Source: a virus. Taken from it: a DNA stretch of 64,000 bases. Where the stretch lies: positions 61,757-125,756 of IMG/VR virus record IMGVR_UViG_3300035698_017497; one strand, 5' to 3'. Positions 7,144-46,364 of this stretch are shown in pieces; position 1 is the stretch's first letter, and each line of letters begins with the position of its first letter. A program made the position numbers and the translations under genes. The notes beneath the pieces were generated by a model, which made no database searches, was not told where the DNA came from, and saw only the letters and a program-made list of their open reading frames with translations.

Positions 7144-7190
7144 TGCATTTTCGATAGCAGTTACCAACCCCATATTGTATATTTTATATC

Positions 7191-7649
7191 ATGGATATAG
7201 ATTTCAATACAATTCTACGCGGTGACCGAGAAGAGTTCACCATTGAAGCTGGCGGTAAGGCCGTTGAAGGTAACCGTGCGCTGGCTAATCAATTTGAAAT
7301 TACGCTACTTACGTCGTGGAATGATTACTATTATCCTGAGACCGGTGAGATTAAGTCGGACACTTTTGGCGGAAACTCACTTAGATATGTTGGGCCACAG
7401 TACAACACTACTGACATTACAAGCATAATGGCAGCAATGACAGCCGCCGTAAATAACACCATTGAATCAATACAGAAGGAGCAAAGAAGTAAAAGTGTTC
7501 CGTTAAATGAGCAAATAAAATCAGCTAAAGTGTCCGATCTTTATACTAGCGGAGATACTATTTATTGTGTTATAGATGTTATTCCTATGGAGCTTGACCC
7601 TTATAGCGAAATCAAGTTAAACCTACCTATCATAAAGGTAAGGACATAA
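7191..7649 (+). CDS. gp25/gp46-like baseplate wedge protein
   Basis: This 152-aa protein has the size and position expected of the small baseplate protein of the T4 gp25 / Mu gp46 group, directly upstream of the J-like wedge protein. It contains a beta-strand-rich start, the FEITLLTSWNDYYYPETGE segment, a central helix (AAMTAAVNNTIESIQKEQ) and a C-terminal strand region (GDTIYCVIDVIPMELDP), matching the family's order of elements. In contractile-tail phages this protein joins the sheath to the baseplate. Sequence similarity is weak, so gene order carries much of the call. The start is the ATG at 7191, 47 bp after the previous gene. Confidence 0.6.
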   Translation: MDIDFNTILRGDREEFTIEAGGKAVEGNRALANQFEITLLTSWNDYYYPETGEIKSDTFGGNSLRYVGPQYNTTDITSIMAAMTAAVNNTIESIQKEQRSKSVPLNEQIKSAKVSDLYTSGDTIYCVIDVIPMELDPYSEIKLNLPIIKVRT

Positions 7650-7652
7650 AAA

Positions 7653-10583
7653 ATGTTTGATATTATTCAGTATTTAAGAAAAAGATGGAGTCAGGTATCG
7701 CAGGCTACAGGGCAGCGCGGAACATTCGTTGACGAGCTAGCCACTAAACCTACAGGTATTATACTCGGGGAATATTATAATTTACTTGTAGAGGAACGTA
7801 CTATTAACAATATTGCTCTTTGGCAGGATATGACAGAAGAGCAGCTTGATTTTTTTGGAAACAAATTCTTTATACCTAGGGTTGATGGCACCAAAGCTTC
7901 AGGGTCTGTAACTATGTATTTTGATGAAGCTTCTGATTTTGAGATAACTGGAGATGTAAAATTCGTTAATGAGGATGGTGTTGAATATTTAGCTTCACAA
8001 CCGTCCTTCGTGAGTGGGAGCGTTCTCAATCAGTCTGATAGCGATTATGCATTATACGAGTATACAGTGCCTGTAGTTGCGCTACTTGCTGGATCTCAAT
8101 CTAATATAAAAGCGAATACGGTTACAGAGATAAGCGGTGGTGATTTTGCATATAAATATGTGACAAATAATGCCGCTATACAGAATGGCGTTTACAGAGA
8201 ATCGAATGAGGAATATGCTAAAAGATTGTTTTACTCTACAAATAACAGAAGTCTTTCGAATCGTGGATCTATAACTACCCAGATTCAGACTTTATTTCCA
8301 GCTATAAAATCAATGTATGTAGCTGGAGCTGGGGACGCTTATATGGAGCGAGATCTTATTTATGGATCAGATGGAAAGGTCGACGATATAACCTTTCTTG
8401 GAAAAACTCCCGGAAGCGGAATAGTTAAGCATTCAGCATACCCTGACTTGTTTCCACCAAGCCCAAACTCAGATACCTATGCTCAGTACAAGCCTTTCAC
8501 TTTAAGCGCATCTGCAGATAAGCCAGTTACGATATCTGCCATAAGTGCAGATGCTTCCATCGATCAGGATCCGGCTATTAACGGCATAAATTTAGGTCTT
8601 GAAAATTCTTATGAGCAATATTCTGGATTGTTTTTTGATGATTACCATAAAAACGCCATTGTAGAATCTGATTATATATTCGACGGCGTGTCTGACGGAT
8701 ACGACGATGTAGTGGTAGCCGGGAATGGGTTAAGGCCTGGTGTGTATGGCGAATTAATAGATAGTGCTGCGAACGATCCTATTGAATTCTCGGGCGCATC
8801 TATACAGATGAGAGCCGTCACTGAAGACAATAGAGCAGTTGTAGTATCTAAAGATATTGGTAAGCGTGGTGGAGTAAAACTTATTGGAACATTGAAGACC
8901 CCTTCTGAAGCATCTGCTCTAAAAACAGTTTTGCAGTTTAGTGTTGGCGGGATAAATGCTGGAAGTTCCGTAGACGCTTTCTCCGGGATTGGGTTTGGGA
9001 TATATCCTTATGCTGCGTATAATAGCTCATTTAATAATGCAATCGCATTCATACATACCGGAACATATTACGGAGCAACTCAAATATATCTTGAGAATGG
9101 AGCGGGAGGATACGTCTCTGATTTTAATGCCGTAGTAGAGGATAATGTAAAATTTAAAGAAGATATGCAGTATGATTTTGAATTTATACTTTATGACAAT
9201 ACCCTAAGTGGAAATAATGATAATTCTGATGAGCCTAGAGATATATACGCAACCTTACTGCTTACTCCTGCCGACTCGGCTTACGACACTATAAAAATTA
9301 GAGCCACTACAAATATGCTTAGGCCTATAAAGGAAGAATTCCTTCTTGAGGATTCCGACTATTTTGGTGAGTCTATCAAAATAGCTCTACAGCCATCTAC
9401 TACAGTTGATGGAACTGAGTTGTGGACTGTTAATAATATCGTAGCCACAGACTTAACAGAGTCTCATGCACAGATGGCTTTAGCTATGGATATTGCGAAT
9501 CTTACTGGGGACGTTAATTTCTACATAGCTGCTGATGGTGAGGGGTTTCTGAATAATGGCGTAATCGAAGGAGCTGAGGTGTTTGTATGGGACCCATCAT
9601 TAGATTCTCTTTATACTCCATCATCTTCATTAAATACAGGTGCATGGAAAAGGCTTAATGAAATTTCTGGCGGAGGAATGTCAACAATATCGGGAGCATC
9701 TGAAGTAATTAAAAATATAGAAGAGTATGTAGTGGGTGGAGCTCTGCCTAATAAGGTGATGTTTTTAGTAAAGTCTTTAGGTAAATCAAAGTCATCAAGT
9801 GAATTTAGAGGAGACGCTCTTGATGATGTCCAAGTAAGGCTCAGTGTTGGGTATGTTAAGATTGAGAATGTTCTTAGTAGTTACTACCATTCAAACACAG
9901 AAACAGATTTATATCTTTCTACTTTTTTCAATACCGAAAGTCTTCCAGAGGAATCAGTTGATGTTACTAAGACCAGTAATGAAACTTATTTTGAATTAAG
10001 TACAGATACTGGTTTTAGCTCTCCAATAGCCAACATAGCCAGTATCACTACTGGTGATAGCGGTGACGAGCTTCAGATTCCGGACGACGAGTATGAGATA
10101 GTGTACAGCGATGATGATTTTAGAGGGTCAAGCTCTGAGATAATAAAAATAATACTAGATGATAGTGCTGTAAATAATATCTCTGTTCAGTACGTAGGGT
10201 ACCCAAAGATAGCTGAAATACAAGGGTACTTCTCAGACTCTCAATATAAACAGAACTTTGGAAACTATCTAATAAGGCATAAATACCCATGCTCTTTAGA
10301 CATAGCTCTCACATATTCAGGGTCATTACAGATTGATGAAATAAACACAATCATAACAGATTATATAGATACGAAAGTAACAAGCACGTTATCTAAGGAT
10401 AAGTTGTGGCAATATCTGTATGACAATGGTTATATTTCAAATATAGGAAGTAACGATCTTACAATATCTTACGAGAAACTTGATAGCGAGTTTGATATTG
10501 AATCAGGAGATATCGATAAAGAGTTAGAGATAAGGCCAATAGATTTTTTCTATATTAAAAAAATAGAATCAACAAAGATATAA
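7653..10583 (+). CDS. Baseplate J-like wedge protein (Mu gp47 / T4 gp6 type)
   Basis: The N-terminal 230 residues carry the features of baseplate J-like proteins: an initial helix, a segment that pairs ASGSVTMYF with a strand-rich domain, AGSQSNIKANTVTEI, and the core NGVYRESNEEYAKRL followed by SLSNRGSITTQIQTLFPAI and a VAGAGD turn. These proteins form the wedge ring of contractile-tail baseplates. At 976 aa it is far longer than Mu gp47. The extra region (about residues 270-850) is beta-rich and may be a decoration or fibre-attachment domain, before a J-like C-terminal end (EIQGYFSDSQYKQNFGNYLIR). It starts 3 bp after the gp25-like gene. Confidence 0.85.
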   Translation: MFDIIQYLRKRWSQVSQATGQRGTFVDELATKPTGIILGEYYNLLVEERTINNIALWQDMTEEQLDFFGNKFFIPRVDGTKASGSVTMYFDEASDFEITGDVKFVNEDGVEYLASQPSFVSGSVLNQSDSDYALYEYTVPVVALLAGSQSNIKANTVTEISGGDFAYKYVTNNAAIQNGVYRESNEEYAKRLFYSTNNRSLSNRGSITTQIQTLFPAIKSMYVAGAGDAYMERDLIYGSDGKVDDITFLGKTPGSGIVKHSAYPDLFPPSPNSDTYAQYKPFTLSASADKPVTISAISADASIDQDPAINGINLGLENSYEQYSGLFFDDYHKNAIVESDYIFDGVSDGYDDVVVAGNGLRPGVYGELIDSAANDPIEFSGASIQMRAVTEDNRAVVVSKDIGKRGGVKLIGTLKTPSEASALKTVLQFSVGGINAGSSVDAFSGIGFGIYPYAAYNSSFNNAIAFIHTGTYYGATQIYLENGAGGYVSDFNAVVEDNVKFKEDMQYDFEFILYDNTLSGNNDNSDEPRDIYATLLLTPADSAYDTIKIRATTNMLRPIKEEFLLEDSDYFGESIKIALQPSTTVDGTELWTVNNIVATDLTESHAQMALAMDIANLTGDVNFYIAADGEGFLNNGVIEGAEVFVWDPSLDSLYTPSSSLNTGAWKRLNEISGGGMSTISGASEVIKNIEEYVVGGALPNKVMFLVKSLGKSKSSSEFRGDALDDVQVRLSVGYVKIENVLSSYYHSNTETDLYLSTFFNTESLPEESVDVTKTSNETYFELSTDTGFSSPIANIASITTGDSGDELQIPDDEYEIVYSDDDFRGSSSEIIKIILDDSAVNNISVQYVGYPKIAEIQGYFSDSQYKQNFGNYLIRHKYPCSLDIALTYSGSLQIDEINTIITDYIDTKVTSTLSKDKLWQYLYDNGYISNIGSNDLTISYEKLDSEFDIESGDIDKELEIRPIDFFYIKKIESTKI

Positions 10584-21951: not shown

Positions 21952-24900
21952 ATGTTTAAAAATCCTACGTTAAATAATATTTCGATATTACCGATACATA
22001 ATTCAAACTTTTGTTCATTTGAAAATTTATCAGAGCAAATTTATTTTTCGGTAGGTTCCGCTGGTGATATGTTTGACCACTCGGGGAGCGATAATTCACA
22101 TGTGTATGATGGCGTTATATCATTTGACATTAATCAGATACATCAAAGCGTAGGAATTGGCGATAAGATCACCATGGATAATGGCGATATTTATTATATA
22201 AAAGGAATTGTTGATAGCAGGTCATGGAAGGTGGGCGTTGTTGATGGGTCACGCCCAAGCGACAGTACAGACTTATCGGTTGTTTCTGTTGAAAAAGCTT
22301 ATAACGGTATTGGTGACGCCATAGATAGTATAGAGCGTATTATCACCAATGACTTCGCCACAAGCGTAGACCTACAAGACGAGCGCACTATTGTTAATAT
22401 AGCATGCTACGACATAGACGATTCGGTGACAAAGGGAATATCATTCTCGAATCAAATAACTATGGGTGCTGCAGGATACATAAGGATCTTTAATCCTCAT
22501 GTTGAGGGCGTAGAGTGCATAAGAAGCCAGAAGCACAATGGTCACCTTGAGTCTGGGAAATACAATCTAACGTTAAACACCGACAGTGTTGGCGGAACAT
22601 CGATAGGCATAAGTCTTTCTGATTACGCTGAGATTGACGGTATGTATATCATAGACTCTTCTGAAAATTCAGACTATACCATATCGCTCTCATCAGGGTC
22701 CAAAATCTTAAGGAGTTATATTGATGCCACTATTGCCAAAAGCAATGCGTGCCTTAATAGCACCGACGGAACGACTGTTCCGGGAATTGTTGCTTACAAT
22801 ACAATCGATTCATCAAATTATACTGTTGTGCTTAACGACCTTGCTCTTAGCACATCTGATTATTACGAAACTTGGTTTTTAAATAATACAATAATTAATG
22901 CTGTTACAGGAATTAATTGCGGACATGCAGATTCTATTATAGCAAGATGTCTGCTACAGTCATGTTCCACTGCATCCGTGGCTCATGTTGACACGTCAAA
23001 TATCTATGATACCACCACAGGCGACACCACGGTGCCAGCTTCTTTGGGAAACGTTCAGAGCGAGACTATTCCATTCCAAACTGACTATATACTTAATGAC
23101 GTATGCGGAAGCGCTCTTACAGCCACTCCAACTGAGCCATTTGAAGTTGAGTACGCAAATTTAAAAACAGACATATTTGGAAATTTAATGTCGCTGCCAG
23201 GAAGAGGTAGTCACAGGTATGTGTCAAGACGAATATACGGCGTAGGCGAGAGTAGCGCTGATATAAAAACTGGATCACCAACGGTAGACATATCAAGTGG
23301 AGTGCTTACATTCTCTACACCCCAGACACATGCTGATGTTACATCCGGATACATAGTAACATTGAGCGGAGTCGACAATGTAATTCTACATGAGCAGATA
23401 AGTTCAGACTCGTGGCTAGTAGCAAAGCATGGATACGCTGACAAATATGCTCCTGCGGACGGCACCAGCATAACTGTAACATCTATAACTCCGGAAACCA
23501 CTTCGCTATACACGGCTAAGGAAACATATATAGAATTAGTAAATGTACATACTCTTGATATTAGGCTGGTGATTAATTGCGTATCTGGTGTTAGTAACGG
23601 GTTATTGGATTTTTATGGAAGCGCAATAATTCCTGATGTTTATAAGTATAGCCCAGACCAATATAGTGAAATTAGAAAAGATATTGACAGAGAGTTTATC
23701 ATAACTGGAGGATCAAATTACTCTGACATTATTTGGATATCTTCGTTCGCAAATTTAAGGTTTACTAACCTAATCTTTGCTAATTGCAATACAGCGATAA
23801 CCATAACGTCAACACCGAATATTAAAATAACAGGATGTGAATTTAGAGATTGCAATAGTGACGCTATACGCGACTATGGAGCTGTTACAGTCCCATGCGG
23901 AGGGGTGTTAATAGCAAATAATATCATTCGTGATTGTAAGGGATATGCTATCAATATTGTTGATAGTGATTCTCCTGCTGTTAATCCATATAGTAGTTAT
24001 CATATTACGCATAACACTATCGCTAAATGTAAAAATGGAATAAGGATAGCTGTCAAGAATTTGGGTCGTGATAGTTACACTATTATGAATAACATTATAG
24101 TAGACTGTGGCGACAGTGCTATAGATGCTGATATGTCTCCATTAAGCTACGGCGCATACTCTGGGAACTATTCAGATGATGAGTCAATACTTCAGCTTGG
24201 GGAATTGAATAGCGCATTAGAGAATCAAGTCAAGTTTAGCCAAAGAGTAGACACACCCTACGTTGTTGACACAGCGTACGAGGCTACAAATATGTCTGTG
24301 AAGCCAATTTTAAATAAGGAGAAGTTTGATTTTTCTACAGGAATACTTGAAAAAAATAGAAACGATGTAATTTACTGTGCTGGAGCATATGCATTTACTA
24401 TAGAAAATCATAGGTTTATGTCAGTTAGAAAGGATCCTCTTACGGCATCCTACTCGACTGGAGACGTCGAGCTTAAGAATTCGATACTAACATTTGATAC
24501 AACACCGTCTACAGAATTGGTTATAGGCGATAAGGTAACGTTCACAGACGAAGCTGTCTCTGTTTATTTAGCAAGTAAAATCAATGCATATAGTTGGGTT
24601 GTTGTAGATAATACTGGAAACTTATATAGTGCAGACATAGAGCCATCTGGCACAACTACCATCTCAGAGGTATCAGACGATCTTAAAAACGCAATCGATA
24701 CAGATTTCGCTAGCGAATTCGTGTCTCCGGCAAGTCTAGATAGCAAGATTACTATCGCAATAGCATCCTCTTCCGTAGCATACTCACATGACGGTGTAGA
24801 AATACCTGCATTATGGAATACTACTTCTGAAAACAGGCTTGTGATAAAGACTCCGGTAGATACGTTTACTGAATGTAATTCTGCGCATAGGCATGATAAT

Positions 24901-27900
24901 ACTACTGACGCACCATTGGGTGAAATAAGAATAACTAATGGTGAGACTTACGGCATATTAATAGAAGCCAGCTTTGTTGATATTGAAGGCTTGAACATCA
25001 CAAGAGACGCTTCCAACATCAGTGCACTTGAAGGAATAAGGCTTAGCGACACTGCTGCGTATTGTTGCGTAACAAAGAATCTGATACATAACATTACTGA
25101 TGGTATAGTGCAGGAATATAGTGTGTCTACTGTTATGGGCGCTATAATAGATATGAATACCACACTAAGCATAGACGATGAAGCTTTTCAGATATCTGAC
25201 GGGACAGCTGAATTTAATACAGCTATAGATACTGGCGGCAATGCTTACACCTTAAACGCAAAAGCTAAACTGGCCAACTCAACATCTATCAATACTGTTG
25301 GGTATAGCCTGGTGCAGATAGATGATTCTCAGGCGATATCTTGCATTTTTGATGGGACTATAATTGGGTACAGCTCTGGGTATAAACTTCCAGCAATGTA
25401 TAACACAAACTGCATTGAGAGCGTAACTGCAGTTACTCAAAATGCAGATATAAATAATCCTACGACTGGAAAATTTCACAGATACGATTTTGACCATACT
25501 TATGCAGCGACACCAGTTTACAGTAATGAGGCTACAGATATAGCTGGAAATTATATAAAAGAATTTTCCAAAGGTTCTGATCAGCCAGATGAAGATACTA
25601 TTGAGATGCTTTACTCTTACGGATACCAAACAGATTTCCTGTCTGGCGGTAGTTCTAATGGGACAATATCTGGAGGTATTCTTACATTCTCAGACGTTAC
25701 AAATTTTGATGCTGACCCAAGGTTTGGGGCTGGGCATGTTGTAAAAATGTCTGGTGGTGACGAGGTATATTTGCAGCGAAGAGTCAAGCCGTTTTACAAT
25801 ACTCAGTGGGTAGTTAAGGATTTGCATGGAGAAACTCCTGATGATTTATCTATAGAAGCTGTCTCAAGTATTGAATACGCAGTATATTCAGACATCGTAG
25901 CAGCTAACAATGGCAGGGTTTTCGATTCATACCATGCAAATACAGCGCATAGTCTTTCAAGAAAGTTATCTACAGGGCACAGCCAGCCGTTCCATCCTAG
26001 AAATGCAAGGATGGTGGTAATCGCTATAGTTTATCCGTCAGATAAAATCTCTGGAAATTACGGATATCCATTTCAGACTACCGAAGCTGTACTTGGCGCA
26101 GGAAGCATGACTACTAAGGATCATTATTTTAAACTGACGACATCTTATGATTATATATGGATGAGTAATTATAATGTTAGATATCTAAACGATTCTATAG
26201 GTGGAATATATAGCAATAATAATATATTAGGAAATACAGTTACTCCAGCTGACGGAACGGTAGTTAAAGTCGCTGCAGATTACACTGTTGTAGAGGGCTT
26301 AAAGATGATATACAGCTCTATACAAATAGCCAATGCTAGTGAATGCAAAATAGACGGGTGCTTAGTGTACGATACTATATCAGCCACCAACATGCTTGAG
26401 CCATGCATTGCGAATTATTATAGCGGAAGATGGTACCAACATGCCGGCCTTACTCAAAAATTCTATGAAGTTTCCACGATTAGTTCGATTTGGAATACCG
26501 TGTACGGTAATTCTACTAACAACGGTGGCGTTGTGTCGATGGATGTTGACGATGTTTATTATTCAATTATAGACCCTGCCAACACTTCCAATATCGTTGA
26601 GGTGGAAGCTATGCCGACGTCTAGTAATTACAATATAGGTTTTAAGTATTCTGAATCCGTGACTCCGACAACTGCCGAGTTTAATGTTGATTACGTTGAT
26701 GACGAATATGCTAAAATTACATATGATTTTAATACCGTAGACGGAACACCAGTGTCAACGTATAAAGAGATTTTAATAAGGCTAAAGTTTGGTCAGCCGA
26801 TAAGATTAAGATTAGCAGTTAAGGCTGATGCGTATAATGGAAATGGATACTTCTCTCTTGATAAATCTGGATCGTACAATCTTATAGCTCAAATAAAAGT
26901 TAACGGTGAATGGTTTACAATATCTGACGACGCTATACTTGCAATATCCGACAACGACTTCGAGGTGAAGACTACTAATTCAGGATTTAACGAATTCGAC
27001 TTTGCGTCAAATGTTGTAGCGACAACTTTTGTTACTACATTTTTAAAACCTGGAACTACATACAACTTAGGGTCCATGGAGAAAGCCTACATTTCGAGTT
27101 GCTTGGCAATGGCTGGATATTACGGATGCATAATGTCTGGAGGAAGAGATATAGTATACAACTGTACCGCAAAACTCCCTACCGCTAGCGCAGCATTCGT
27201 ATATCATTATAAGGATAAGCTTGTCAACTGCTACGGCGAAGGAATATCTGGATTAAACACATCCTTCTATCCGGCAATTGAATACGAGGCAACTATTCAT
27301 CACTGCATTGCGTCTGACTCGTGGCTTGATTCATACATAGACTCTGATAATACTCTTCAATGTTTTGGTGACTATGTTAATTACAACGCCCTTTACGGTA
27401 ACTTTGTTCATGGGTTTAATCAGCGCGATCAATTTCTAAACTCATCTGGGGTAGATCTTTCTAGAGATCCTGATTACCCAATACAGAGAAGTATTAATGG
27501 AAGCGAGTTCGACGATGGTCGTAATTGGCCTATGGGATCAGTGTCTCAAAATAGGACAAATGCTGTAATAATAAAAGTATCAGTAGGAGACACATCAGAC
27601 GATTTTGGGTCAGGCGGAACGTGTACATTGAAGGTTGCTCCTATAACAGACATCGTTCAACATACCGGGTACACAGCGGTAACTTTTGATACTCCGCAAA
27701 CAGACGTCTTGCTGACTGCAGGGATGAAGGTTGAGATTTCTGGATGGGGCAATACGACCCTGCCGATCTACCTTTCTAAAAAGATAAGCAACACGGTATG
27801 GGAGTGTCATACAGTGTCTGGACTCGGAGATGCCGGAGCTTCTGGAGAATTTTCTGGAACAGTTTTAAGCATAAAACCTATGTACGATAATCTATCAGAC

Positions 27901-30438
27901 GTTGCTATTCCGTCATCATCCGGATTGCTCGGAATAAATATATACATCAATAAAGATCTTACTAATGATGAGCTTGACTTTTCATCATTAAAGAATATCC
28001 CAGACTTGACGACGTATATTGGAACCGCAGATCACCCAGTCAGAGTCATTGTTCCTAATGGAGACGAATCGTCAAATGTAAACCTTAGGCATGATGGAAA
28101 AACTGGAGGGGTGACTTTAACAAACTGCAGACTAGATGTTCCTAAACATACAATTATAGAGGGCATACATTTTGATGGAATAAAATCTGGAGACAGCGAA
28201 ATTGTATCAGTCAGGTCCGGCGTCAAGGTTTCAAACTGTATGTTTGAAAATATGCCTGACTCAGACGCTCAGGATGAGAATGTTGCAATAAGAATAGACT
28301 CAATGCCATTTGAATATATCTTTGCGTCATTAGCATCTCTTGATTATAAGATATTTTATGCAGGCGCAGGACATGTCAGGAATTGCGTGTTTAATAATGT
28401 GCAGGGCTATTGCGTAAATATTAACCAGTCTGTCGACTCTACGTTCAGGGATTACCTTAATGTAAATAATAATACTATGTATAATTGTAAGCATGGAGTT
28501 AAGGCTGAACCTGTAGACGACGCTTCATCTATGATGATTGTTCTAGCGTACAACAACGTCTTAAGCTTAATGTCTAAAACTTCATTTAGCGCAGGCAATA
28601 GACATACTCCAGCTTTGCTATGTAAAAACAATATAGACTGTTCTGATTCTGCAGATGACTTCCTTACGCATCCAGGATTCGAGTACTATGTTGACGACAC
28701 TAAGCTTCAGTCTCCTTACAATTTTACCAATGTCAACCCTGTGTTTAGAAATGTTGCTGAGAATGATTTTAATCCTCACCCGTGGTACGATACAGAGATG
28801 ATAGATAATAGCTGTAAGGATAACGATACGCTTGGACAGAGTCCCTTTAGCGATGACATAGCAGGACAAGAGCGTGGGGTCCTTAAAACTATTGGAGCTT
28901 TTGATTCCGATGATATAGTTGGGTACGCTGAGATCTTAGTAGGCGATATTGATCTTGAATCAACATCGTATGTGACTCAAGGCAGCTCGGAGATTAATAT
29001 TTATCTTAGGCAGCCTGTAGATATAGGCGGGAGCGTTTACGAACCAAACTACATACCCTCAATTAGTCAAACTTATCAGTTTATGAAGATATCGGAAGTT
29101 AACAATGCTCTAATTGATAATCCAAATATAAATATAGTTATACATGTTGAAGGTGGATTTAATTTTCCAGCATATAGCATTTTCCCAACTGACGACGCTA
29201 CATTTAACTTTTTTAATAGGCCAGACAGCACAGTTACTATAAAAACATACGAGCCCGAGCTGCTGACAAATGGAGCCGCTGGAATAGAATACCGTAGCTC
29301 ATTAATAGACAACCAGTCACTTGTAAAAAAAGTCTCTTTTGAACAGATTAAGATATTCCAGAGTAATGACATACTTCCAGTGGAAGTCTCTGAGTATATG
29401 ATACCTGAGCTTGATGATGTTGATGGATTAGAGTTTATAAATTCAATAGTTCAATTTTATACAGGCATAACGCCTACAACTGTTGTGACTCCAGTTTTCA
29501 TAACAAACTCTTTGCTGATATGCGAAAGCCCAACCGCTACGATTTATTTAACAGGATCAGAGGGCGGGAGTTTTGGGATGGTAAATAGTTTAGTAATATT
29601 CTATTCTGCGCTCACTCCAGAAATAAATTACTCAGATAAAGTTGCAGCGTTTTATGTTCGAAAAGTTAATATGTATAATTACGGTGACGGAGACGTGACT
29701 GTCCCGGTATCTTCTAAGTATGACCAGGTAGTAGTAGATGTGAATCCAATGCTAAGAACTAGTATAGAGCTTGGTGACAATACTAGATTACTGATAGATG
29801 AAGACATGAGCCAGTTTCCGAACTCAACACTGGTAGACTCTGGTGTTAATTCGTACTACGATGGTGGCGATATTGATATTGCCGGCAATCAAAGAATATT
29901 TCAAAGTAGGACAATTGATATCGGTCCATTCGAAGCAGAGAATCCTGTAATATTATTTAGTGATAAAAATATTTTAAAAATGTTTCAGGACAAATTGATT
30001 AGAGATGGGGAAGTAATTTACTCACCGTTGCTAGGCTCAAGATATTTAGATATGCATGAGAGAACTGACGGACTGTACGACACTGTAATTGAACAGAACA
30101 GCGCATGGGACGAATATCTTAGAGGATCAAAAATCATCATACAGCTTAATGATAATATTTCTAATTATGAGATTATAACAGACAAAACTCATATAGAGGT
30201 AGGATCCTTCGAAGCATACTATGATATAGGCGAAAGAACTATTGCGTTTAAGAAAACTGGAGAGGTATTAAAAACACTTTTAAAAGCTCCGTACAATAAT
30301 GGTAGGTATGTATATTCTTATAGTGCATTCAGTCGCCAGTTAGTAATTTATATTAATAATACATATTACAAAGGCTCTTCAGGAGTTAGGAATAAAATTT
30401 CCAAACATAAGTTTGGTGGAAATCCAGTTGTAGCATAA
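21952..30438 (+). CDS. Giant modular beta-helix appendage/tail-spike-like protein, 2,828 aa
   Basis: The longest gene in the window. The product alternates a recurring module of about 90-110 residues with long parallel beta-helix regions. Module copies lie near residues 50-125, 426-524, 822-921, 1222-1316 and 1873-1987. Each has a GVLTF-like strand, an IGDKVTF/VTLSG strand, a YLSKKI or YLASKI step, an SWVV or QWVVK strand, and a closing V-S-I-(X)-YNAID-like helix. The intervening helices carry Asn/Ser ladders such as ITNNTI-like turns and GAFDSDD/GPFEAEN closures. The C-terminal 200 residues (from about 2,640) differ and may anchor to the next protein. Function in host contact is inferred; no enzyme site was identified. 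Confidence 0.75.
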   Translation: MFKNPTLNNISILPIHNSNFCSFENLSEQIYFSVGSAGDMFDHSGSDNSHVYDGVISFDINQIHQSVGIGDKITMDNGDIYYIKGIVDSRSWKVGVVDGSRPSDSTDLSVVSVEKAYNGIGDAIDSIERIITNDFATSVDLQDERTIVNIACYDIDDSVTKGISFSNQITMGAAGYIRIFNPHVEGVECIRSQKHNGHLESGKYNLTLNTDSVGGTSIGISLSDYAEIDGMYIIDSSENSDYTISLSSGSKILRSYIDATIAKSNACLNSTDGTTVPGIVAYNTIDSSNYTVVLNDLALSTSDYYETWFLNNTIINAVTGINCGHADSIIARCLLQSCSTASVAHVDTSNIYDTTTGDTTVPASLGNVQSETIPFQTDYILNDVCGSALTATPTEPFEVEYANLKTDIFGNLMSLPGRGSHRYVSRRIYGVGESSADIKTGSPTVDISSGVLTFSTPQTHADVTSGYIVTLSGVDNVILHEQISSDSWLVAKHGYADKYAPADGTSITVTSITPETTSLYTAKETYIELVNVHTLDIRLVINCVSGVSNGLLDFYGSAIIPDVYKYSPDQYSEIRKDIDREFIITGGSNYSDIIWISSFANLRFTNLIFANCNTAITITSTPNIKITGCEFRDCNSDAIRDYGAVTVPCGGVLIANNIIRDCKGYAINIVDSDSPAVNPYSSYHITHNTIAKCKNGIRIAVKNLGRDSYTIMNNIIVDCGDSAIDADMSPLSYGAYSGNYSDDESILQLGELNSALENQVKFSQRVDTPYVVDTAYEATNMSVKPILNKEKFDFSTGILEKNRNDVIYCAGAYAFTIENHRFMSVRKDPLTASYSTGDVELKNSILTFDTTPSTELVIGDKVTFTDEAVSVYLASKINAYSWVVVDNTGNLYSADIEPSGTTTISEVSDDLKNAIDTDFASEFVSPASLDSKITIAIASSSVAYSHDGVEIPALWNTTSENRLVIKTPVDTFTECNSAHRHDNTTDAPLGEIRITNGETYGILIEASFVDIEGLNITRDASNISALEGIRLSDTAAYCCVTKNLIHNITDGIVQEYSVSTVMGAIIDMNTTLSIDDEAFQISDGTAEFNTAIDTGGNAYTLNAKAKLANSTSINTVGYSLVQIDDSQAISCIFDGTIIGYSSGYKLPAMYNTNCIESVTAVTQNADINNPTTGKFHRYDFDHTYAATPVYSNEATDIAGNYIKEFSKGSDQPDEDTIEMLYSYGYQTDFLSGGSSNGTISGGILTFSDVTNFDADPRFGAGHVVKMSGGDEVYLQRRVKPFYNTQWVVKDLHGETPDDLSIEAVSSIEYAVYSDIVAANNGRVFDSYHANTAHSLSRKLSTGHSQPFHPRNARMVVIAIVYPSDKISGNYGYPFQTTEAVLGAGSMTTKDHYFKLTTSYDYIWMSNYNVRYLNDSIGGIYSNNNILGNTVTPADGTVVKVAADYTVVEGLKMIYSSIQIANASECKIDGCLVYDTISATNMLEPCIANYYSGRWYQHAGLTQKFYEVSTISSIWNTVYGNSTNNGGVVSMDVDDVYYSIIDPANTSNIVEVEAMPTSSNYNIGFKYSESVTPTTAEFNVDYVDDEYAKITYDFNTVDGTPVSTYKEILIRLKFGQPIRLRLAVKADAYNGNGYFSLDKSGSYNLIAQIKVNGEWFTISDDAILAISDNDFEVKTTNSGFNEFDFASNVVATTFVTTFLKPGTTYNLGSMEKAYISSCLAMAGYYGCIMSGGRDIVYNCTAKLPTASAAFVYHYKDKLVNCYGEGISGLNTSFYPAIEYEATIHHCIASDSWLDSYIDSDNTLQCFGDYVNYNALYGNFVHGFNQRDQFLNSSGVDLSRDPDYPIQRSINGSEFDDGRNWPMGSVSQNRTNAVIIKVSVGDTSDDFGSGGTCTLKVAPITDIVQHTGYTAVTFDTPQTDVLLTAGMKVEISGWGNTTLPIYLSKKISNTVWECHTVSGLGDAGASGEFSGTVLSIKPMYDNLSDVAIPSSSGLLGINIYINKDLTNDELDFSSLKNIPDLTTYIGTADHPVRVIVPNGDESSNVNLRHDGKTGGVTLTNCRLDVPKHTIIEGIHFDGIKSGDSEIVSVRSGVKVSNCMFENMPDSDAQDENVAIRIDSMPFEYIFASLASLDYKIFYAGAGHVRNCVFNNVQGYCVNINQSVDSTFRDYLNVNNNTMYNCKHGVKAEPVDDASSMMIVLAYNNVLSLMSKTSFSAGNRHTPALLCKNNIDCSDSADDFLTHPGFEYYVDDTKLQSPYNFTNVNPVFRNVAENDFNPHPWYDTEMIDNSCKDNDTLGQSPFSDDIAGQERGVLKTIGAFDSDDIVGYAEILVGDIDLESTSYVTQGSSEINIYLRQPVDIGGSVYEPNYIPSISQTYQFMKISEVNNALIDNPNINIVIHVEGGFNFPAYSIFPTDDATFNFFNRPDSTVTIKTYEPELLTNGAAGIEYRSSLIDNQSLVKKVSFEQIKIFQSNDILPVEVSEYMIPELDDVDGLEFINSIVQFYTGITPTTVVTPVFITNSLLICESPTATIYLTGSEGGSFGMVNSLVIFYSALTPEINYSDKVAAFYVRKVNMYNYGDGDVTVPVSSKYDQVVVDVNPMLRTSIELGDNTRLLIDEDMSQFPNSTLVDSGVNSYYDGGDIDIAGNQRIFQSRTIDIGPFEAENPVILFSDKNILKMFQDKLIRDGEVIYSPLLGSRYLDMHERTDGLYDTVIEQNSAWDEYLRGSKIIIQLNDNISNYEIITDKTHIEVGSFEAYYDIGERTIAFKKTGEVLKTLLKAPYNNGRYVYSYSAFSRQLVIYINNTYYKGSSGVRNKISKHKFGGNPVVA

Positions 30439-40687: not shown

Positions 40688-40760
40688 CGGCGTCCTTCGG
40701 CCCTTTTGTACGCCGTTGTGGTTGGGTGGATTGGTTATTATCGATTCACCCTTCTTTATT
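40686..40760 (+). terminator. Plus-strand terminator after the portal gene
   Basis: Two hairpins in series: AACGGCGT (40686-40693) with ACGCCGTT (40710-40717), and GGGTGGAT (40724-40731) with ATTCACCC (40744-40751, one G-T pair) followed by TTCTTTATT. The second is the likelier terminator. Together they close the structural transcription unit. Confidence 0.7.
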
Positions 40761-40824: not shown

Positions 40825-41313
40825 TTAAGCTGCGTTAACAGGTTTGTTAAAAACAACAGAAACCTCTTTGTTTGAATTTGCAACAAGGTGATCTGACCAT
40901 CGTGCAGGCATTCCATTCATTGAGATTTTGTACGTATCGATAATACCAGCCTGTGCTCCATTAAAGAGTTTGCTGACAACATCGTTGCTACATGAATCAA
41001 AAACCTGCTTAATTGTCATACCGGAAACCTCAGGCACTGGAACTCTTACCGGGGCACATCCTGAATTCACAAACAGGATGGTGTAAAAAGAATCTTCAGC
41101 TGACGCAGCGTTAACCTTTTTGTTTCCAACGACAACCGAAAATCCATCATGCAGAATGCAATATACAGAATCTGGTTTTATTCCGTTGACAGTTACCGCA
41201 TTGTCGGAAAATGAGTACCCCTCTTTTACGAGAAGCTCGCTAAGTGTTGCGCCTGTACGAAGTGTTACGTTAGCGATTCCATGACCGATTCTGGCTACTT
41301 TTACTGTAATCAT
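40825..41313 (-). CDS. Double beta-grasp ubiquitin-like (ThiS/MoaD-type) protein
   Basis: This 162-aa protein appears to be two ubiquitin-like domains in tandem. Domain 1 (residues 1-70) has the ThiS/MoaD pattern: an ITVKVARIG first strand, VTLRTGATLSELLVKEG (strand plus first helix), VTVNG and DGFSVVVG. Domain 2 (about 75-162) repeats the order with VPVPEVSGMTIKQVF, ISMNG and EVSVVF. Both end in the same tail, KKVNAA (65-70) and KPVNAA (157-162). There is no terminal Gly-Gly. By context with E1, E2-like and JAB genes it is the likely modifier, perhaps matured at VNAA; that is an inference. It is the last gene of the operon, with GGAG before its ATG. Confidence 0.7.
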   Translation of the reverse strand: MITVKVARIGHGIANVTLRTGATLSELLVKEGYSFSDNAVTVNGIKPDSVYCILHDGFSVVVGNKKVNAASAEDSFYTILFVNSGCAPVRVPVPEVSGMTIKQVFDSCSNDVVSKLFNGAQAGIIDTYKISMNGMPARWSDHLVANSNKEVSVVFNKPVNAA

Positions 41314-41378
41314 AATACTTGTTCTCCTACGTTGTTAGTTAATAAAAAAAATTGCTTACCAGTGTATCAGTGTGATGA

Positions 41379-42122
41379 TTAAGGAAATAGCGCTGGGCTT
41401 CTTGTGTTTGTATAGTCGAATCCAATTACTCCGTATGGACTCAACTGAATTTGTAGCTCGTTCCAGATTACTGGCTCCTGACCATCTCTATTGGAACGAA
41501 AATGATGCATCATCTGAGAGACGCATGTCGTTGCAAGATATATAGCTGTTACCGCTACGCTTGCTGGTGTACCGCAGCCCCCTGCAATACTCTCTTCGTC
41601 TGAATACCACTTACTAAGCCAAACCTTTGAAAGATCATAGCTCTGTGGATTCACCGCAAAAACCATTCCCTCAGTAGAGCCCATGCGTGCTTCTACCATA
41701 AGCTTTGTAAAGGAATTAAACTTGAGCATATGCTCAAAGATCATTTTTCTAGTTTCCATCGAATCGACAGCTAGAAAAGTGTAATCTGCTCTGATGTGAG
41801 TAGCGTCGCTATCTTCCGTGACTCTCTCATTGTGTGTATGGATATCAAACCCCATCTTGTCTTTGATAAGACTTGCTAGAGCATCTACCTTAGGCATTCC
41901 GACATGCTTCATCATGTAGGCTTGGTTTGGAAGGTTGTGTTCTTCAACGATATCCATATCGTAAACATGTAACTCTCCACAGTTAGGTTTACAGAATCCC
42001 ATTTGTGCTAACTGTAAGGCCACGTGCGATCCGACTGCTCCGACGCCAATTATTGCGACCTTAACTCCTTTAAACTCGTCAGGGTTAACGAAGCTAAGCT
42101 GTCTGGTGAAATCAATTGCCAT
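41379..42122 (-). CDS. ThiF/E1-like ubiquitin-activating adenylyltransferase
   Basis: This 247-aa protein has the full E1/ThiF/MoeB core: the nucleotide-binding loop GVGAVGS (26-32), D55-M-D57-IVEEHNLPNQ (the usual D-x-D...N-L-x-R-Q, with Asn in place of Arg), GMPKVDAL with Lys78, and AVDSMETRK (118-126). Cys183 in GGCGTPA is placed like the catalytic Cys of ThiF. The zinc-binding Cys pairs of ThiF are absent. Such enzymes adenylate the C-terminus of a ubiquitin-like protein and pass it on as a thioester. A GGAGG at the end of the JAB gene serves as its ribosome-binding site, so the two are coupled. Confidence 0.9.
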   Translation of the reverse strand: MAIDFTRQLSFVNPDEFKGVKVAIIGVGAVGSHVALQLAQMGFCKPNCGELHVYDMDIVEEHNLPNQAYMMKHVGMPKVDALASLIKDKMGFDIHTHNERVTEDSDATHIRADYTFLAVDSMETRKMIFEHMLKFNSFTKLMVEARMGSTEGMVFAVNPQSYDLSKVWLSKWYSDEESIAGGCGTPASVAVTAIYLATTCVSQMMHHFRSNRDGQEPVIWNELQIQLSPYGVIGFDYTNTRSPALFP

Positions 42123-42124
42123 TA

Positions 42125-43087
42125 TTAAAATCCTCCTTGAGGGTTGTCAAAAGAACCATCTAGAAATGTATTGTCGTCCTGAGCATAAACCATTTCATCA
42201 AAATGAGAATTTTTATTTTCTCTTTTTGACATATTTCTATGATTCATTTTTACGCCACGGTTATCGATTACGGAATGATGTCCGTTTTTTGAGTGGTGAC
42301 CGTAATTGCGTTGGAAGTTATCGGGTGTCGGCCTATCATCTTGAATCAGCTGACTTTGGGAGTTACTGTAAACTTCCTGAACTGGAGGAATTGCTGCAAG
42401 TATTCTTTTTTTAGAAAGATACTTTACAACGTTTGTTATCTTTGGATTTAGAAAATATCCATCCCTAGCAACATCACAGACTTGATTAATTGTTTTGATC
42501 TTATCCATAGTAGACAAATCAGTATTATTAGCAAGTTCTACTAAGGCTCCATTTAGCAACTTTCCGTTACTTAACTCTTCCTCCTGGGTAAGTCTTACCA
42601 AATATGGCATCTCGTATCTAATGCTATTTTTAACATCATACAAATGGATAGTATGCTCCATTCTTTTGTTAAAAACAGCTGAGATATAGTACTCACCATT
42701 AGCGGATTCTCTCAGGAAACGATTGGTAGTGGCATTATCTGTACCAGAGAAATATGCGCTCATGTTAACATGTGAATGAGCCCATCCCCTGATATTTTCA
42801 GTCTCGTCAGCTCTACCTCTATTAAAAAGGTAAAGGAACAGTTCAGTGTCAGCATAATCATCCAACTCGCAATATGCAGCTTGCATAATTTTCTGCTTTG
42901 GATAAAATATATTATACACTTCGTATTCGTTAACAGCCCCGGGGACGCGTTGGACAAACAGCATGAATATAACTTCCATGTCGTGTTGTGATATCATCTC
43001 CCTTATCTTCTGGTCCGTGCTTCCCGTAAAATAAAGCGACGGGAAGGTTGACTCATCATAGCATTTAGCTGTGACTTTTGTAGACAT
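42125..43087 (-). CDS. JAB/MPN (JAMM) metalloprotease, deubiquitinase-like
   Basis: Residues 38-170 form a JAB/MPN domain. The zinc site is H-S-H-(x7)-S-x2-D: His104, His106, Ser114 and Asp117 from the chosen start, with a likely catalytic Glu38 in DMEVIFMLF. JAMM enzymes remove ubiquitin-like proteins from targets or trim their precursors. The C-terminal 120 residues are polar, His/Asn-rich and probably disordered. The start is the ATG at 43087, with GGTGAG upstream; an in-frame GTG at 43099 would overlap the previous gene. It lies directly between the E2-like and E1 genes. Confidence 0.85.
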   Translation of the reverse strand: MSTKVTAKCYDESTFPSLYFTGSTDQKIREMISQHDMEVIFMLFVQRVPGAVNEYEVYNIFYPKQKIMQAAYCELDDYADTELFLYLFNRGRADETENIRGWAHSHVNMSAYFSGTDNATTNRFLRESANGEYYISAVFNKRMEHTIHLYDVKNSIRYEMPYLVRLTQEEELSNGKLLNGALVELANNTDLSTMDKIKTINQVCDVARDGYFLNPKITNVVKYLSKKRILAAIPPVQEVYSNSQSQLIQDDRPTPDNFQRNYGHHSKNGHHSVIDNRGVKMNHRNMSKRENKNSHFDEMVYAQDDNTFLDGSFDNPQGGF

Positions 43088-43088
43088 G

Positions 43089-44498
43089 TTACTCACCACT
43101 TTCTACAAGAGGGAATCTTGTCGTTATTTTGCCAAACGTGTCACTGAGATTTGGATGCTGTATCATATGTATTATTATAGATAGCACACCGTCCATATTC
43201 TCATCACGAATAGCATTCATAAGATCGTTTGCATATCCACCGAAACATGTAGAAGTCTTTACTCCACCGTCACGGCCGACAGTGTTTCTGGTATGCGGAG
43301 AATCTATCGGATTTTCTGCACCTGACTCAATTATCCAATCACTTATATTATGGATGGATATGTGAGAAGTGCTAACAGCTGGATTGGCACTGTTCAGCAT
43401 TTGGATGGGAAGTTTTATGATAAGCTTACCAATATTATACACGTTGCCATTAACGCCATCAGCATGTATGTCGTTTGTAACGATACACACGTAGTCGCCT
43501 TTTACCAACACCTTCTCAATCAAAGGATTGCGGTTACAGTATAACATAAGTGAAAACACGTTCCCCTTAGCAGTGTTCGATCTGTCAATCTGACCCGTAA
43601 GAGCTTGAATTTTATTTTGAGCTCTCAGAATATCATTACTAAGTTTGCTGATAGCAGCTTGGTACTCGTTTACGGCCTGAACCAAGTCATCCTCATTTGA
43701 CGGAGTTGCCAGAATTCCATGCTTGACTCTGACAAAGTCTTTTGCAAAACTTTCGATAGTGGCGCTCACTTCGATTTCGGTAGCCTCAGAATCTGGTCGC
43801 CTCCACATAAGATCGGGATTTGACGTAAGGTTGGATTCGTAATCACGAATTCTGTTATCCTTACGGCCATATTTCATCATACGATCTCTTGGTGGAATCT
43901 CAGGGTCTGGAGCTGGCGCCTGTGCTGGTCCAGGAATAACCTGATTTAACGGCCTGTCATTTCCGGTGAGTACGCCCATGGCAGCTTCATCTCTTTCTTC
44001 ATTTAGCCTATCGCCGTACACGAATCCGTCCTCTACGAGATCATCTTCTGTGGTCGTATCATTCTCGAAGAGCAATCTAGCCTCAGTTTCCTCATCATGC
44101 TGATTATCATTTTGCGCATCCTCTGTATTATCATGCGGCGCTGGGTCTGGTAACGCTACTTCATTTACCCTAACCATAAATGATATTGGTGATCCAGCGG
44201 ATACTATTGGGGATATTGTGGTATTGCCAATAGTTGCAAAAAAGTCCGAAAGATATTCTGATTTAAAGATGGTGTGTGCGATTAGTCTCATGCAGGTAAT
44301 GGCGTCATTTTCGACATTCTCCAACAGTCGTTCTTCGCCGCACCACGGTCTACCATCGTGCTCTATCAAGACTGTACTCCTTCCGCTGTCGGCTGGCGAT
44401 GTAAATGCATTAAAACCATCCATCAAAGCTGGATTCACCAATGTAACTAAATCACTGGCTTCGCGAGGAAGCTTGCTATTTCCTAAAACAAAACTCAT
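43089..44498 (-). CDS. Putative E2-like conjugating protein A (coiled coil plus C-terminal E2-like domain)
   Basis: This 469-aa protein has three parts: an N-terminal domain (1-112), a long acidic, Pro/Gln-rich linker (112-250), and a coiled coil (about 268-306) leading into a C-terminal domain (315-465). The last resembles a ubiquitin-conjugating (E2) fold. It has a strand pair ending NIGKLIIKLPIQM, then SPHTRN (400-405) in place of the E2 HPN motif, a candidate catalytic Cys418 in STCFGGY, and a closing helix GVLSIIIHMIQHPNLSD. The matching order in the next gene and the E1/JAB/beta-grasp neighbours support this. It is pattern inference, not a proven homology. Confidence 0.55.
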   Translation of the reverse strand: MSFVLGNSKLPREASDLVTLVNPALMDGFNAFTSPADSGRSTVLIEHDGRPWCGEERLLENVENDAITCMRLIAHTIFKSEYLSDFFATIGNTTISPIVSAGSPISFMVRVNEVALPDPAPHDNTEDAQNDNQHDEETEARLLFENDTTTEDDLVEDGFVYGDRLNEERDEAAMGVLTGNDRPLNQVIPGPAQAPAPDPEIPPRDRMMKYGRKDNRIRDYESNLTSNPDLMWRRPDSEATEIEVSATIESFAKDFVRVKHGILATPSNEDDLVQAVNEYQAAISKLSNDILRAQNKIQALTGQIDRSNTAKGNVFSLMLYCNRNPLIEKVLVKGDYVCIVTNDIHADGVNGNVYNIGKLIIKLPIQMLNSANPAVSTSHISIHNISDWIIESGAENPIDSPHTRNTVGRDGGVKTSTCFGGYANDLMNAIRDENMDGVLSIIIHMIQHPNLSDTFGKITTRFPLVESGE

Positions 44499-44532
44499 AA
44501 GAGTCTGCCTTTCTTTAAAATATTAAAACAAA

Positions 44533-46242
44533 TTATCTATGAAATGCAGCACGGAGACGATTAACTTCATTGTGAGTGTCTTCCAGTCCTGCGATATTAA
44601 ACGCACATCCGAGATTATTCTCTATCATAACCTCATCGCGGGTAACTCTAGGCCAACATTTTACCTTGCTTCCAGCCGCGTCATTGAAGTTTACTGAGCA
44701 CAAGTAATTAATGCACATCAATAGCGCACTTGAAATATCATATGCTGCAAGCGCTTCGCTTAGACCAATAGTCAATTCGCCTTCGCAAGGTCTACCCTCC
44801 CCGTTGACATGTGGAGCATGGGATCTTTTCCAGAAAGCGTCCACAACACGTGTAGTATTGTACATTCTTAAAGTATAAGTAGTCTTTCTGGCACTTTCTC
44901 CATACTTTACATTTAACCTTATGCAAAATGCGCCTATGTCAAACCAGGCATCTTCGCCAAGTTCAGTCACATTAGCATACAGATTCTTCGTGTAGGCTGT
45001 AACAGTTAGTAATGACATGCTACCATCAGTATTCATCTGCTTGTCCACATTGACCATATTAACCTTTTCGTGGTTCTGTATAGCCCTGATACTGATATCG
45101 ATATTGTCATTGCAAATCCCCTTAGAACTCAAAAGCATGATATCGCTTTTGACGGTACTGAGAGCTTGCTTTTTAGATATGATACGACTCATCAGTTCCT
45201 CTAGGTTGACAATGATAGTATCTAGCTCAGTCTTTTTACTTCTCAGGAGGGCTTCTGATTGATATTTTGCAACATCCTTAATCTCAGATTCAAATCTATC
45301 AATTGCCTCTTTGTAAATGCTTGTGTCAAACTCGAGCATTTGTTTATAGCTCATAGCTCTATCGAACCTTGGGATTAGCGTGTCAATAACAATGTCAACG
45401 GTGCTTGAATTGTTGTACAGAATAAATAGCGAGTCGTATATAGTCTCTATTGCAAGAGTTGCTCCAGTAATAGTATCTTTATATATTTTCTTAATATTTT
45501 TAACGTACTTGCTATTTATCCCAACTATAGGAGTTGATGTTCCGGCTGAAGAAATACCATTATACCTTGATGAATTTGCTCCGTTGATAGTAATTGAAGC
45601 GTGAAGTTCTTGAGAGTTTTTAGTTGCAGATCTTAAGTTGAACGTGTCTGTACTATCCCCTCCAGAGCTTGCCGAAAGAAGTGCCATTTCAGAAGACTGT
45701 TTCGTAAAAGCCTCAAGAGATTCTACGTTTACGAATCTTGTTAGGAATATCTTGTTAGAGATGTGGGCTAGGAGTTCAGTGGTTGACATAGACATATCTT
45801 GCCTCATCGATTCAACATCCTCAGTCGACATCATACCTCCAACTGCTATGGCTGAAAGAAAACTTGACATTCTTCCTAGAGTTGAATACAAATTTGTATC
45901 AGTAAATCCTTTAATCCACATGATTTTAGATTTAGGATGCCATAATTTTAAATCATTAAATTTATTTAAAACTCTAGCGGCTAAATTTATACGAACTGTC
46001 GGGGTCAAATGAGACTGCACAATAAGATCGACACCATTAGTGGCTAACATAATACCATTAGTCCCGATAAGTCCAGGGATCATTCCTGCAAGCTTGCCGT
46101 CTATATTGATATGCTTTATGCCAGAGCTCGAAACTGACCCGAATTCATTGATAATTTTTATAATCACCTCATTAATATCCTTAACTCCAGAACGATGCAT
46201 CATGTCTAAAATAAAGTATCTTCTAATTTTGTTAAAATTCAT
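44533..46242 (-). CDS. Putative E2-like conjugating protein B (coiled coil plus C-terminal E2-like domain)
   Basis: First gene of the operon, 569 aa. The N-terminal 250 residues are unrecognised. A coiled coil spans about residues 310-370. The C-terminal domain (about 378-535) parallels that of the downstream E2-like protein: FDIGAFCIRLNVKYG strands, APHVNGEGRPCEGEL (476-490) with candidate catalytic Cys486 a short distance after the PHVN motif, and a closing helix YDISSALLMCINYLCSVNFND. PHV-N...G.-C-.G is the arrangement expected of bacterial E2-like families. Two E2-like proteins with similar layout suggest two conjugating specificities or a heteromer; both ideas are inference. Confidence 0.55.
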   Translation of the reverse strand: MNFNKIRRYFILDMMHRSGVKDINEVIIKIINEFGSVSSSGIKHINIDGKLAGMIPGLIGTNGIMLATNGVDLIVQSHLTPTVRINLAARVLNKFNDLKLWHPKSKIMWIKGFTDTNLYSTLGRMSSFLSAIAVGGMMSTEDVESMRQDMSMSTTELLAHISNKIFLTRFVNVESLEAFTKQSSEMALLSASSGGDSTDTFNLRSATKNSQELHASITINGANSSRYNGISSAGTSTPIVGINSKYVKNIKKIYKDTITGATLAIETIYDSLFILYNNSSTVDIVIDTLIPRFDRAMSYKQMLEFDTSIYKEAIDRFESEIKDVAKYQSEALLRSKKTELDTIIVNLEELMSRIISKKQALSTVKSDIMLLSSKGICNDNIDISIRAIQNHEKVNMVNVDKQMNTDGSMSLLTVTAYTKNLYANVTELGEDAWFDIGAFCIRLNVKYGESARKTTYTLRMYNTTRVVDAFWKRSHAPHVNGEGRPCEGELTIGLSEALAAYDISSALLMCINYLCSVNFNDAAGSKVKCWPRVTRDEVMIENNLGCAFNIAGLEDTHNEVNRLRAAFHR

Positions 46243-46335: not shown

Positions 46336-46364
46336 AGCCCTAACTATTTAAGTTAAGGCTTTTT
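46336..46364 (-). terminator. Terminator between the SNF2 helicase and the ubiquitin-like operon
   Basis: A 10-bp inverted repeat (AGCCTTAACT/AGTTAGGGCT on the minus strand, one G-T pair, five-base loop) is followed by CTTTT. It lies 23 bp after the helicase stop. T residues on both sides make it usable in either direction. Confidence 0.7.

Follow-up and report, generated by a model that had tools for sequence, protein, structure and literature searches.

A probable complete ubiquitin-like conjugation pathway encoded by a bacteriophage operon

Can a bacterial virus carry its own full set of enzymes for attaching a ubiquitin-like (Ubl) protein to other proteins? The question is raised by a five-gene operon in the virus record IMGVR_UViG_3300035698_017497, which is 125,756 bases long and of which the stretch from 61757 to 125756 (64,000 nucleotides, hereafter the window) was analysed. 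A sequence-only reading had taken this operon for a complete conjugation set in a tailed phage, consisting of two E2-like (conjugating) proteins, a JAMM protease, an E1/ThiF (activating) enzyme and a double beta-grasp protein. Our analysis makes it highly probable that the phage encodes an entire E1-E2-modifier-JAMM pathway, with no E3 recognised, because each component is backed by profile, residue-conservation or structural evidence, and by conserved gene neighbourhoods. The five open reading frames (ORFs) all lie on the minus strand, where they fill 46242-40825 and adjacent genes are −11 to +65 bases apart, in agreement with the operon as first drawn. In the order of transcription they are:

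44533-46242, minus strand: E2-like protein A, 569 amino acids (aa), with its E2 domain at about residues 412-538 (44629-45009)
43089-44498, minus strand: E2-like protein B, 469 aa, with its E2 domain at about residues 333-458 (43125-43502)
42125-43099, minus strand: JAB/JAMM metalloprotease, 324 aa, GTG start
41379-42122, minus strand: E1/ThiF-type activating enzyme, 247 aa
40825-41313, minus strand: modifier with two ubiquitin-like units, 162 aa

The E1 matched the ThiF family of Pfam (PF00899) at E=1e-21, above the family cut-off. It carries G26-x-G-x-x-G-S (GVGAVGS), D55-x-D (DMD), N63, Q67, K78, D120 and the candidate catalytic Cys183, as largely anticipated from the letters alone; among aligned relatives G26, G28, D55, D57, N63 and K78 were invariant, and D120 and Cys183 were kept in 99% and 97%, respectively. 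When the profile of the E1 family was compared with the PDB, UBA5, UBA1, UBA3, ThiF and MoeB were matched at 1e-19 to 1e-15, and SAE2, ATG7 and the bacterial BubCD were among the further matches. The enzyme is a single adenylation domain, the second (inactive) adenylation domain being absent. The JAB protein matched Prok-JAB at E=3e-4, below the cut-off. The JAMM set E42, H108-S-H110, S118 and D121 is present in it and is 99–100% conserved in 70 homologues, which sustains the earlier identification of a JAMM protease from His-Ser-His...Ser-x2-Asp. A small profile of the JAB family gave weak PDB matches, almost all of them to JAMM proteases (N11, CSN5, AMSH). The C-terminal ~130 aa of the JAB protein have no assigned role.

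Searched singly, neither E2-like protein had a useful match in Pfam, PHROGs, NCBIfam or PADLOC, and tblastn of both against annotated phages returned no match. We built an E2 profile from 22 other phage proteins, from which the window and its nearest relative, locus L005, were excluded. This profile matched the 569-aa protein at E=5e-19 and the 469-aa protein at E=3e-6; judged by sequence, the 469-aa protein belongs to the same E2-like family as the 569-aa protein. The candidate catalytic residue of protein A is Cys486, in S-H-A-P-H-V-N-G-E-G-R-P-C-E-G, and that of protein B is Cys418, in S-P-H-T-R...S-T-C-F-G-G. In the phage loci the gene adjoining the JAB gene usually has H-P-H-x(2-10)-C-x-G. 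Across all the loci collected, this motif was found in 37 of 1078 proteins encoded within 5 kb of an E1 gene and on the same strand, against 0 of 980 proteins elsewhere, and the Cys and Gly of C-x-G were present in all 72 members of the E2 family (72/72). Together with the independent profile scores, this conservation upholds the claim of two E2-like proteins.

When a profile of 31 E2 domains was run against all PDB sequences, only seven matches were obtained up to E=10, and all were ubiquitin-conjugating enzymes. Each match was weak (E 0.09-0.54), and in the alignment HPH fell on HPN and Cys on Cys. The Pfam family with the largest number of matching E2 members was UQ_con (2/31, best E 0.0055). 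The sequence-only reading had held that the conjugation model would fail if the two long proteins lacked an E2 fold and the beta-grasp protein were a plain structural domain with no predicted contact with the E1; neither the E2 candidate that was modelled nor the modifier bore out such a failure. The AlphaFold2 (AF2) model of the E2 domain of the 569-aa protein, with a predicted local distance difference test (pLDDT) score of 86.7 and a predicted template-modelling (pTM) score of 0.81, is of E2 type: nearly all of its 20 best Foldseek matches in the PDB were E2s or E2 complexes, with Ubc9 at the top (E=4e-3, probability 0.96).

It is possible, though we consider it doubtful, that E2-like protein B is a catalytically dead scaffold of the kind of the ubiquitin E2 variants (UEV-like) and not a second conjugating enzyme. 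Its profile score is the weaker of the two (3e-6 vs 5e-19), and the first His of HPH is missing from it (SPHTR); its L005 counterpart reads CPHAR. However, the Cys and the C-F-G are retained in both the window and the L005 copies. Besides the window, paired E2 genes are present in L005, L091, L093, L006 (part of a 395-kb phage record) and the bacterial chromosome L085.

The modifier alone also had no useful match in Pfam, PHROGs, NCBIfam or PADLOC. A Ubl profile made from other phages (again without the window and its nearest relative) matched it at E=1.3e-8, with unit 1 at 3.8e-6 and unit 2 weakly. The first unit covers about residues 1-70 and ends K-V-N-A-A (VNAA at 67-70), and the second covers about residues 75-162 and ends P-V-N-A-A at the stop. 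The AF2 model showed two beta-grasp units (pLDDT 87.8, pTM 0.52), whose mutual orientation is unsure because of the pTM of 0.52. Its best Foldseek matches were ISG15, FAT10 and linear di-ubiquitin (E=5.6e-7 to 3e-6), and in sequence the Ubl family matched PDB entries that include SAMP2, PF1061, TtuB, ThiS and MoaD. The profile, the two-unit model and the fold matches substantiate the double beta-grasp protein of the sequence-only reading. A chance beta-grasp structural domain, considered as another identity for the modifier, was rejected.

The ends of the modifiers vary across the family: in many, GG is followed by 0-4 further residues, and the others end GA, GN, GS or NA. In L005 both units end SAA (SAA/SAAK), and in L024 the modifier is a tandem GG...GG polymodifier with VKGG closing each unit. 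The GG endings, some with a short tail, and the tandem GG...GG protein fit precursors processed by a JAMM protease. A separate group (L032, L122, L123, L127, L128) has modifiers ending NA or NAA, suggesting that the terminal Gly was lost more than once or that the loss is old. At L091, 10771-11769 encodes a phage polymodifier of 332 aa; it has two or more Ubl units, with the ends AGN and KGN, and carries an acidic tail.

Because ThiS, MoaD and TtuB are among the matches of the Ubl family, among NCBIfam models the E1 matches those of ThiF best, and the E1 is named "thiamine biosynthesis protein" in phage records, the pair could instead be a sulfur-carrier system in which, as in ThiF-ThiS or MoeB-MoaD, a C-terminal thiocarboxylate serves the thiolation of a cofactor, tRNA or DNA. 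We regard this as very improbable and rejected it on three grounds: the E1 scored 80 bits against the ThiF equivalog cut-off of 159, the modifier has two units per protein and Ala-Ala ends, which are unsuited to a sulfur carrier that needs a terminal Gly, and most copies are accompanied by E2-like proteins with an invariant Cys. Moreover, among the genes flanking the modules examined we recognised none for a rhodanese or a cysteine desulfurase and no sulfur gene.

Several observations weigh against a working conjugation pathway. The terminal Gly usual in characterised modifiers is absent, since both units in the window end VNAA; with Ala-Ala in place of Gly-Gly, it is uncertain whether the E1 activates the modifier. 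The E1 itself has Asn (NLPNQ) where the canonical N-x-x-R-Q motif has Arg. The curated Pfam cut-offs were not reached for Prok-JAB or the E2 families, and the Foldseek E2 matches of the 569-aa model had low template-modelling scores of 0.3-0.4. Finally, the analysis identified neither a target nor an E3 nor a proteolytic partner for the window operon.

Is the operon peculiar to this phage, as the first reading might suggest? It is not; it belongs to a broad phage family, which was uncovered by an IMG/VR scan with an alignment of four phage E1s (157 relatives, 80 loci kept) and enlarged to 147 loci by a second scan. Single-sequence scans of viral contigs with the window E1, the 569-aa protein or a Xanthomonas phage E1 gave no matches. 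In more than 130 further phage contigs an E1 gene adjoins a JAB gene, and most of these modules also include an E2 and a small modifier that ends GG, GA, GN or NA. For 90 E1 genes the sequence extends 5 kb or more in either direction; 87 of them were accompanied by JAB, 73 by an E2-like gene, 67 by a modifier and 60 by all three. In the 147 loci every JAB, E2 and modifier match lay within 5 kb of the E1 on the same strand, with none elsewhere in 2.4 Mb. These counts characterise the family but do not test it independently, because some of the profiles were built from the same loci. The E values given above for the E2-like proteins and modifier of the window are, unlike the counts, independent of the window. 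Comparison of gene order in related phages, which the sequence-only reading had proposed as a check, thus revealed conserved E1-JAB-E2-modifier neighbourhoods.

In the E1 tree the window paired with L005 (100/100), and the two grouped with L091, L006 and L092 and with a phage clade that has GN-ending modifiers (98/90). A scan of bacterial genomes with one phage-derived pattern gave three matches, of which only L085 is in the family; L086 and L087 were not counted, as the E1 tree places them well away from the family and they showed no partner genes. Since this pattern is narrow, rarity in bacteria is only suggested. L085 (locus positions 5130-9709; Anaerolineaceae chromosome) has the order modifier (...VKGG), E2, E2, JAB and E1. 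A tyrosine recombinase gene lies next to this module, which is possibly an integrated element.

How does the module relate to the bacterial systems of the same chemistry? Operons of E1, E2, JAB and Ubl genes were predicted in bacteria by Iyer et al. 2006 (PMC1779556), together with a Ubl-JAB pair in lambda. Like Bil, the window operon combines a double-Ubl modifier, a separate E2, a JAMM protease and an E1. However, the BilD E1 has an inactive and an active adenylation domain (reviewed in PMC11354881), whereas here there is a single 247-aa domain, matched by the BilD model of PADLOC only in part (211-335 of 453, 5e-8). BilB has CEHH with its histidines after the Cys (PMC11354881), whereas here HPH precedes the Cys, as HPN does in eukaryotes. 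Furthermore, the module has two E2s and is phage-borne, and the BilA, BilB and BilC models of PADLOC had no match among the window proteins.

Type II CBASS Cap2-Cap3 and the Cap2_3 of 6A-MBL likewise join E1, E2 and JAB activities in one operon, and the window E1 matched NF058523 at 9e-14 and the PADLOC E1-E2 model at 1e-13. In those systems Cap2 fuses E2 and E1, whereas here the genes are separate and the operon encodes its own modifier. The PRTRC plasmid set (type 6d, PMC1779556) resembles the module in having separate Ubl, E2, JAB and ThiF-type E1 genes but differs from it in that two E2s are present here. PRTRC_ThiF matched the E1 at 8e-14 with 51.6 bits (cut-off 144.75), PRTRC_A matched the JAB protein at 0.005 with 16.4 bits (cut-off 101.8), and the other PRTRC models of NCBIfam had no match among the window proteins. 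Membership of Bil, type II CBASS, 6A-MBL and PRTRC was therefore rejected on the grounds of the single-domain E1, the lack of CEHH and of a Cap2 fusion, and the PRTRC scores below cut-off. The module works like the Bil, CBASS and PRTRC systems and is a member of none. These had been named as its relatives, and related they are, but only distantly.

Two further comparisons come from the same survey. The PolyUbl systems (type 6e, PMC1779556) share a tandem Ubl modifier, JAB, E1 and an E2-like protein with the module; their E2-like protein is described as inactive or RWD-like and their E1 as fused to JAB or another domain (PMC1779556), whereas the window E2s retain the Cys and no fusions occur here. 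The TAPI-TAPK proteins of lambda and T1 also bring phage Ubl and JAB domains together, but they have no E1 or E2 and sit among tail genes (PMC1779556). As for human proteins, ISG15, FAT10 and linear di-ubiquitin are fold neighbours of the modifier and Ubc9 of the E2; with identities of 8–17% and a different domain orientation, this is a resemblance of fold only and no descent is claimed.

The bacterial operons that have these parts and an assigned role, Bil and type II CBASS, are anti-phage, and the window E1 partly matches their E1-E2 and BilD models at the scores given above. Bil tags tail proteins of invading phages. Conjugation might accordingly be directed against other genetic elements or host defences, as a phage-borne defence, a means of superinfection exclusion or a counter to a host Ubl defence. 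We think this rather unlikely, since many phages that are not related to one another carry the module, and it often adjoins replication genes and does not sit in obvious defence islands. In addition, no CD-NTase (nucleotidyltransferase) or metallo-beta-lactamase (MBL) gene was seen near the window operon in the library scans, its neighbours being helicase and portal genes.

These neighbours raise the question of what would be modified. Directly upstream of the operon, on the same strand, lies an SNF2-type helicase gene, with exonuclease and primase-helicase genes further upstream. Downstream and convergent is a probable portal gene (weak phrog_64 match, E=0.002), and baseplate wedge and tail-fibre genes lie on the plus strand of the window. 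The baseplate, tail-fibre, helicase, primase and exonuclease genes of this virus record confirm that a phage carries the operon. The portal gene named by the sequence-only reading is indeed the neighbour, but its assignment is itself weak. Of the operon's own promoter and terminator, proposed in the same reading, only the second has a counterpart in our scans: promoter-like sites numbered 22 against 16.7 ± 3.1 in shuffled sequences (consensus scan), an excess that is not significant, whereas a terminator-like hairpin was seen by consensus scan at either end of the operon:

46336-46360, minus strand (46360-46336): terminator-like hairpin, with the helicase gene on one side and the operon on the other
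40724-40751: second terminator-like hairpin, in the gap where the operon and the portal gene converge

The operon adjoins and converges on a probable portal gene in L005 as well as in the window, and lambda-type phages use the ubiquitin-like TAPI with the JAB-containing TAPK in tail assembly (PMC1779556). Both points would suit a pathway that acts on the virion of the phage itself (head, portal or tail) during assembly. We judge this to be unlikely, however, because the relatives checked adjoin replication and recombination genes and not structural genes, and because the operon lies on the strand opposite to the structural genes and follows a helicase gene. At other loci these neighbours are helicase, DNA polymerase, exonuclease, Sak4 or DnaB genes. 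As many homologous modules stand beside such genes, a replication-stage role is mildly favoured, and the likeliest use of the pathway, which we propose tentatively and with some doubt, may be to modify proteins of the DNA replication or recombination stage, whether of the phage or of the host.

From the parts we infer a thioester relay with conjugation to targets and deconjugation. The E1 would adenylate the C-terminus of the double modifier and then take the modifier onto Cys183. From there it would move to Cys486 of one E2-like protein, and probably to Cys418 of the other, and these enzymes would attach it to target proteins at lysines or other groups. Modifier precursors would be trimmed by the JAMM protease, which would also strip the modifier from targets. 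The presence of two E2s may mean two target classes or a pair of one active and one regulatory E2. Because no E3 was recognised, target selection most likely falls to the long stretches that precede the E2 domains at the N-terminal side of the E2 proteins. At L008 (11245-13776) a Ubl-E2-JAB-E1 module is closely followed by a gene for a ClpA/C-like ATP-dependent protease (phrog_4871), which hints that some phages may degrade modified proteins.

The family also reaches cultured phages: E1 relatives occur in Xanthomonas and Flavobacterium phages, and the E1-JAB pair is found in crAss-like phages (cr111_1, Steigviridae) and Flavobacterium phages, where the neighbourhood contains primase, uracil-DNA glycosylase and exonuclease genes. 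Upstream of the crAss-like pair, one protein contains Y-x-H-S-H...F-C-x-G and another is Ubl-like, its core ending K-S-G-(G/A) before an extension. The former had no E2 match in Pfam or PDB profile searches, and in a comparison with the profile of the other E2 family H-x-H and C-x-G aligned with a probability of 6%; for these reasons the label "E2" denotes motif and gene position only in these phages. A conserved set of extended Ubl, HSH...C-x-G protein, JAB and E1 was seen amid replication genes at L004 (3737-7612), L053, L036 and further loci of crAss-like or Flavobacterium phages. In L003 (4635-6927, Flavobacterium phage Fpv1) the JAB gene seems to be split by an endonuclease gene on the opposite strand (5151-5900); in L053, its close relative, JAB is read as a longer ORF.

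Taken more widely, it is quite possible, if short of probable, that phages of many lineages (jumbo phages, and crAss-like gut phages by motif and gene order) carry dedicated conjugation pathways in their replication block and modify replication or host proteins with them, the branch of the window using an ISG15-like dimer with Ala-Ala for diglycine. In that branch the E1 would then have to work on a modifier end that lacks glycine.

In the open literature, subscription papers and preprints lying outside the search, we found no account of a complete E1-E2-Ubl system encoded by a phage, and a term search of a crAss-like phage survey (PMC7886860) and a jumbo-phage survey (PMC7824862) turned up neither ThiF nor JAB nor phage ubiquitin-like conjugation. 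The phage-borne full set is therefore provisionally new relative to the operons predicted in PMC1779556, and with the open literature alone searched, priority is not established. Intact modules in more than 100 phage contigs suggest that bacterial viruses may run their own protein tagging, in contrast to those bacterial Ubl conjugation operons whose role has been assigned (Bil, type II CBASS), which act against phages. Culturable phages make the tagging targets and the cost of E1 loss directly testable questions. The many diverse HPH...C-x-G E2 cores and the GG, GA, GN, NA and AA modifier ends should be useful for studying the origin of ubiquitin-type conjugation from sulfur-carrier chemistry. 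The annotation of at least some of these genes, with the E1 filed as "thiamine biosynthesis protein" in several phage records, is also corrected. Apart from the operon, a 2828-aa ORF was observed on the plus strand in the tail/structural region of the window (21952-30438).

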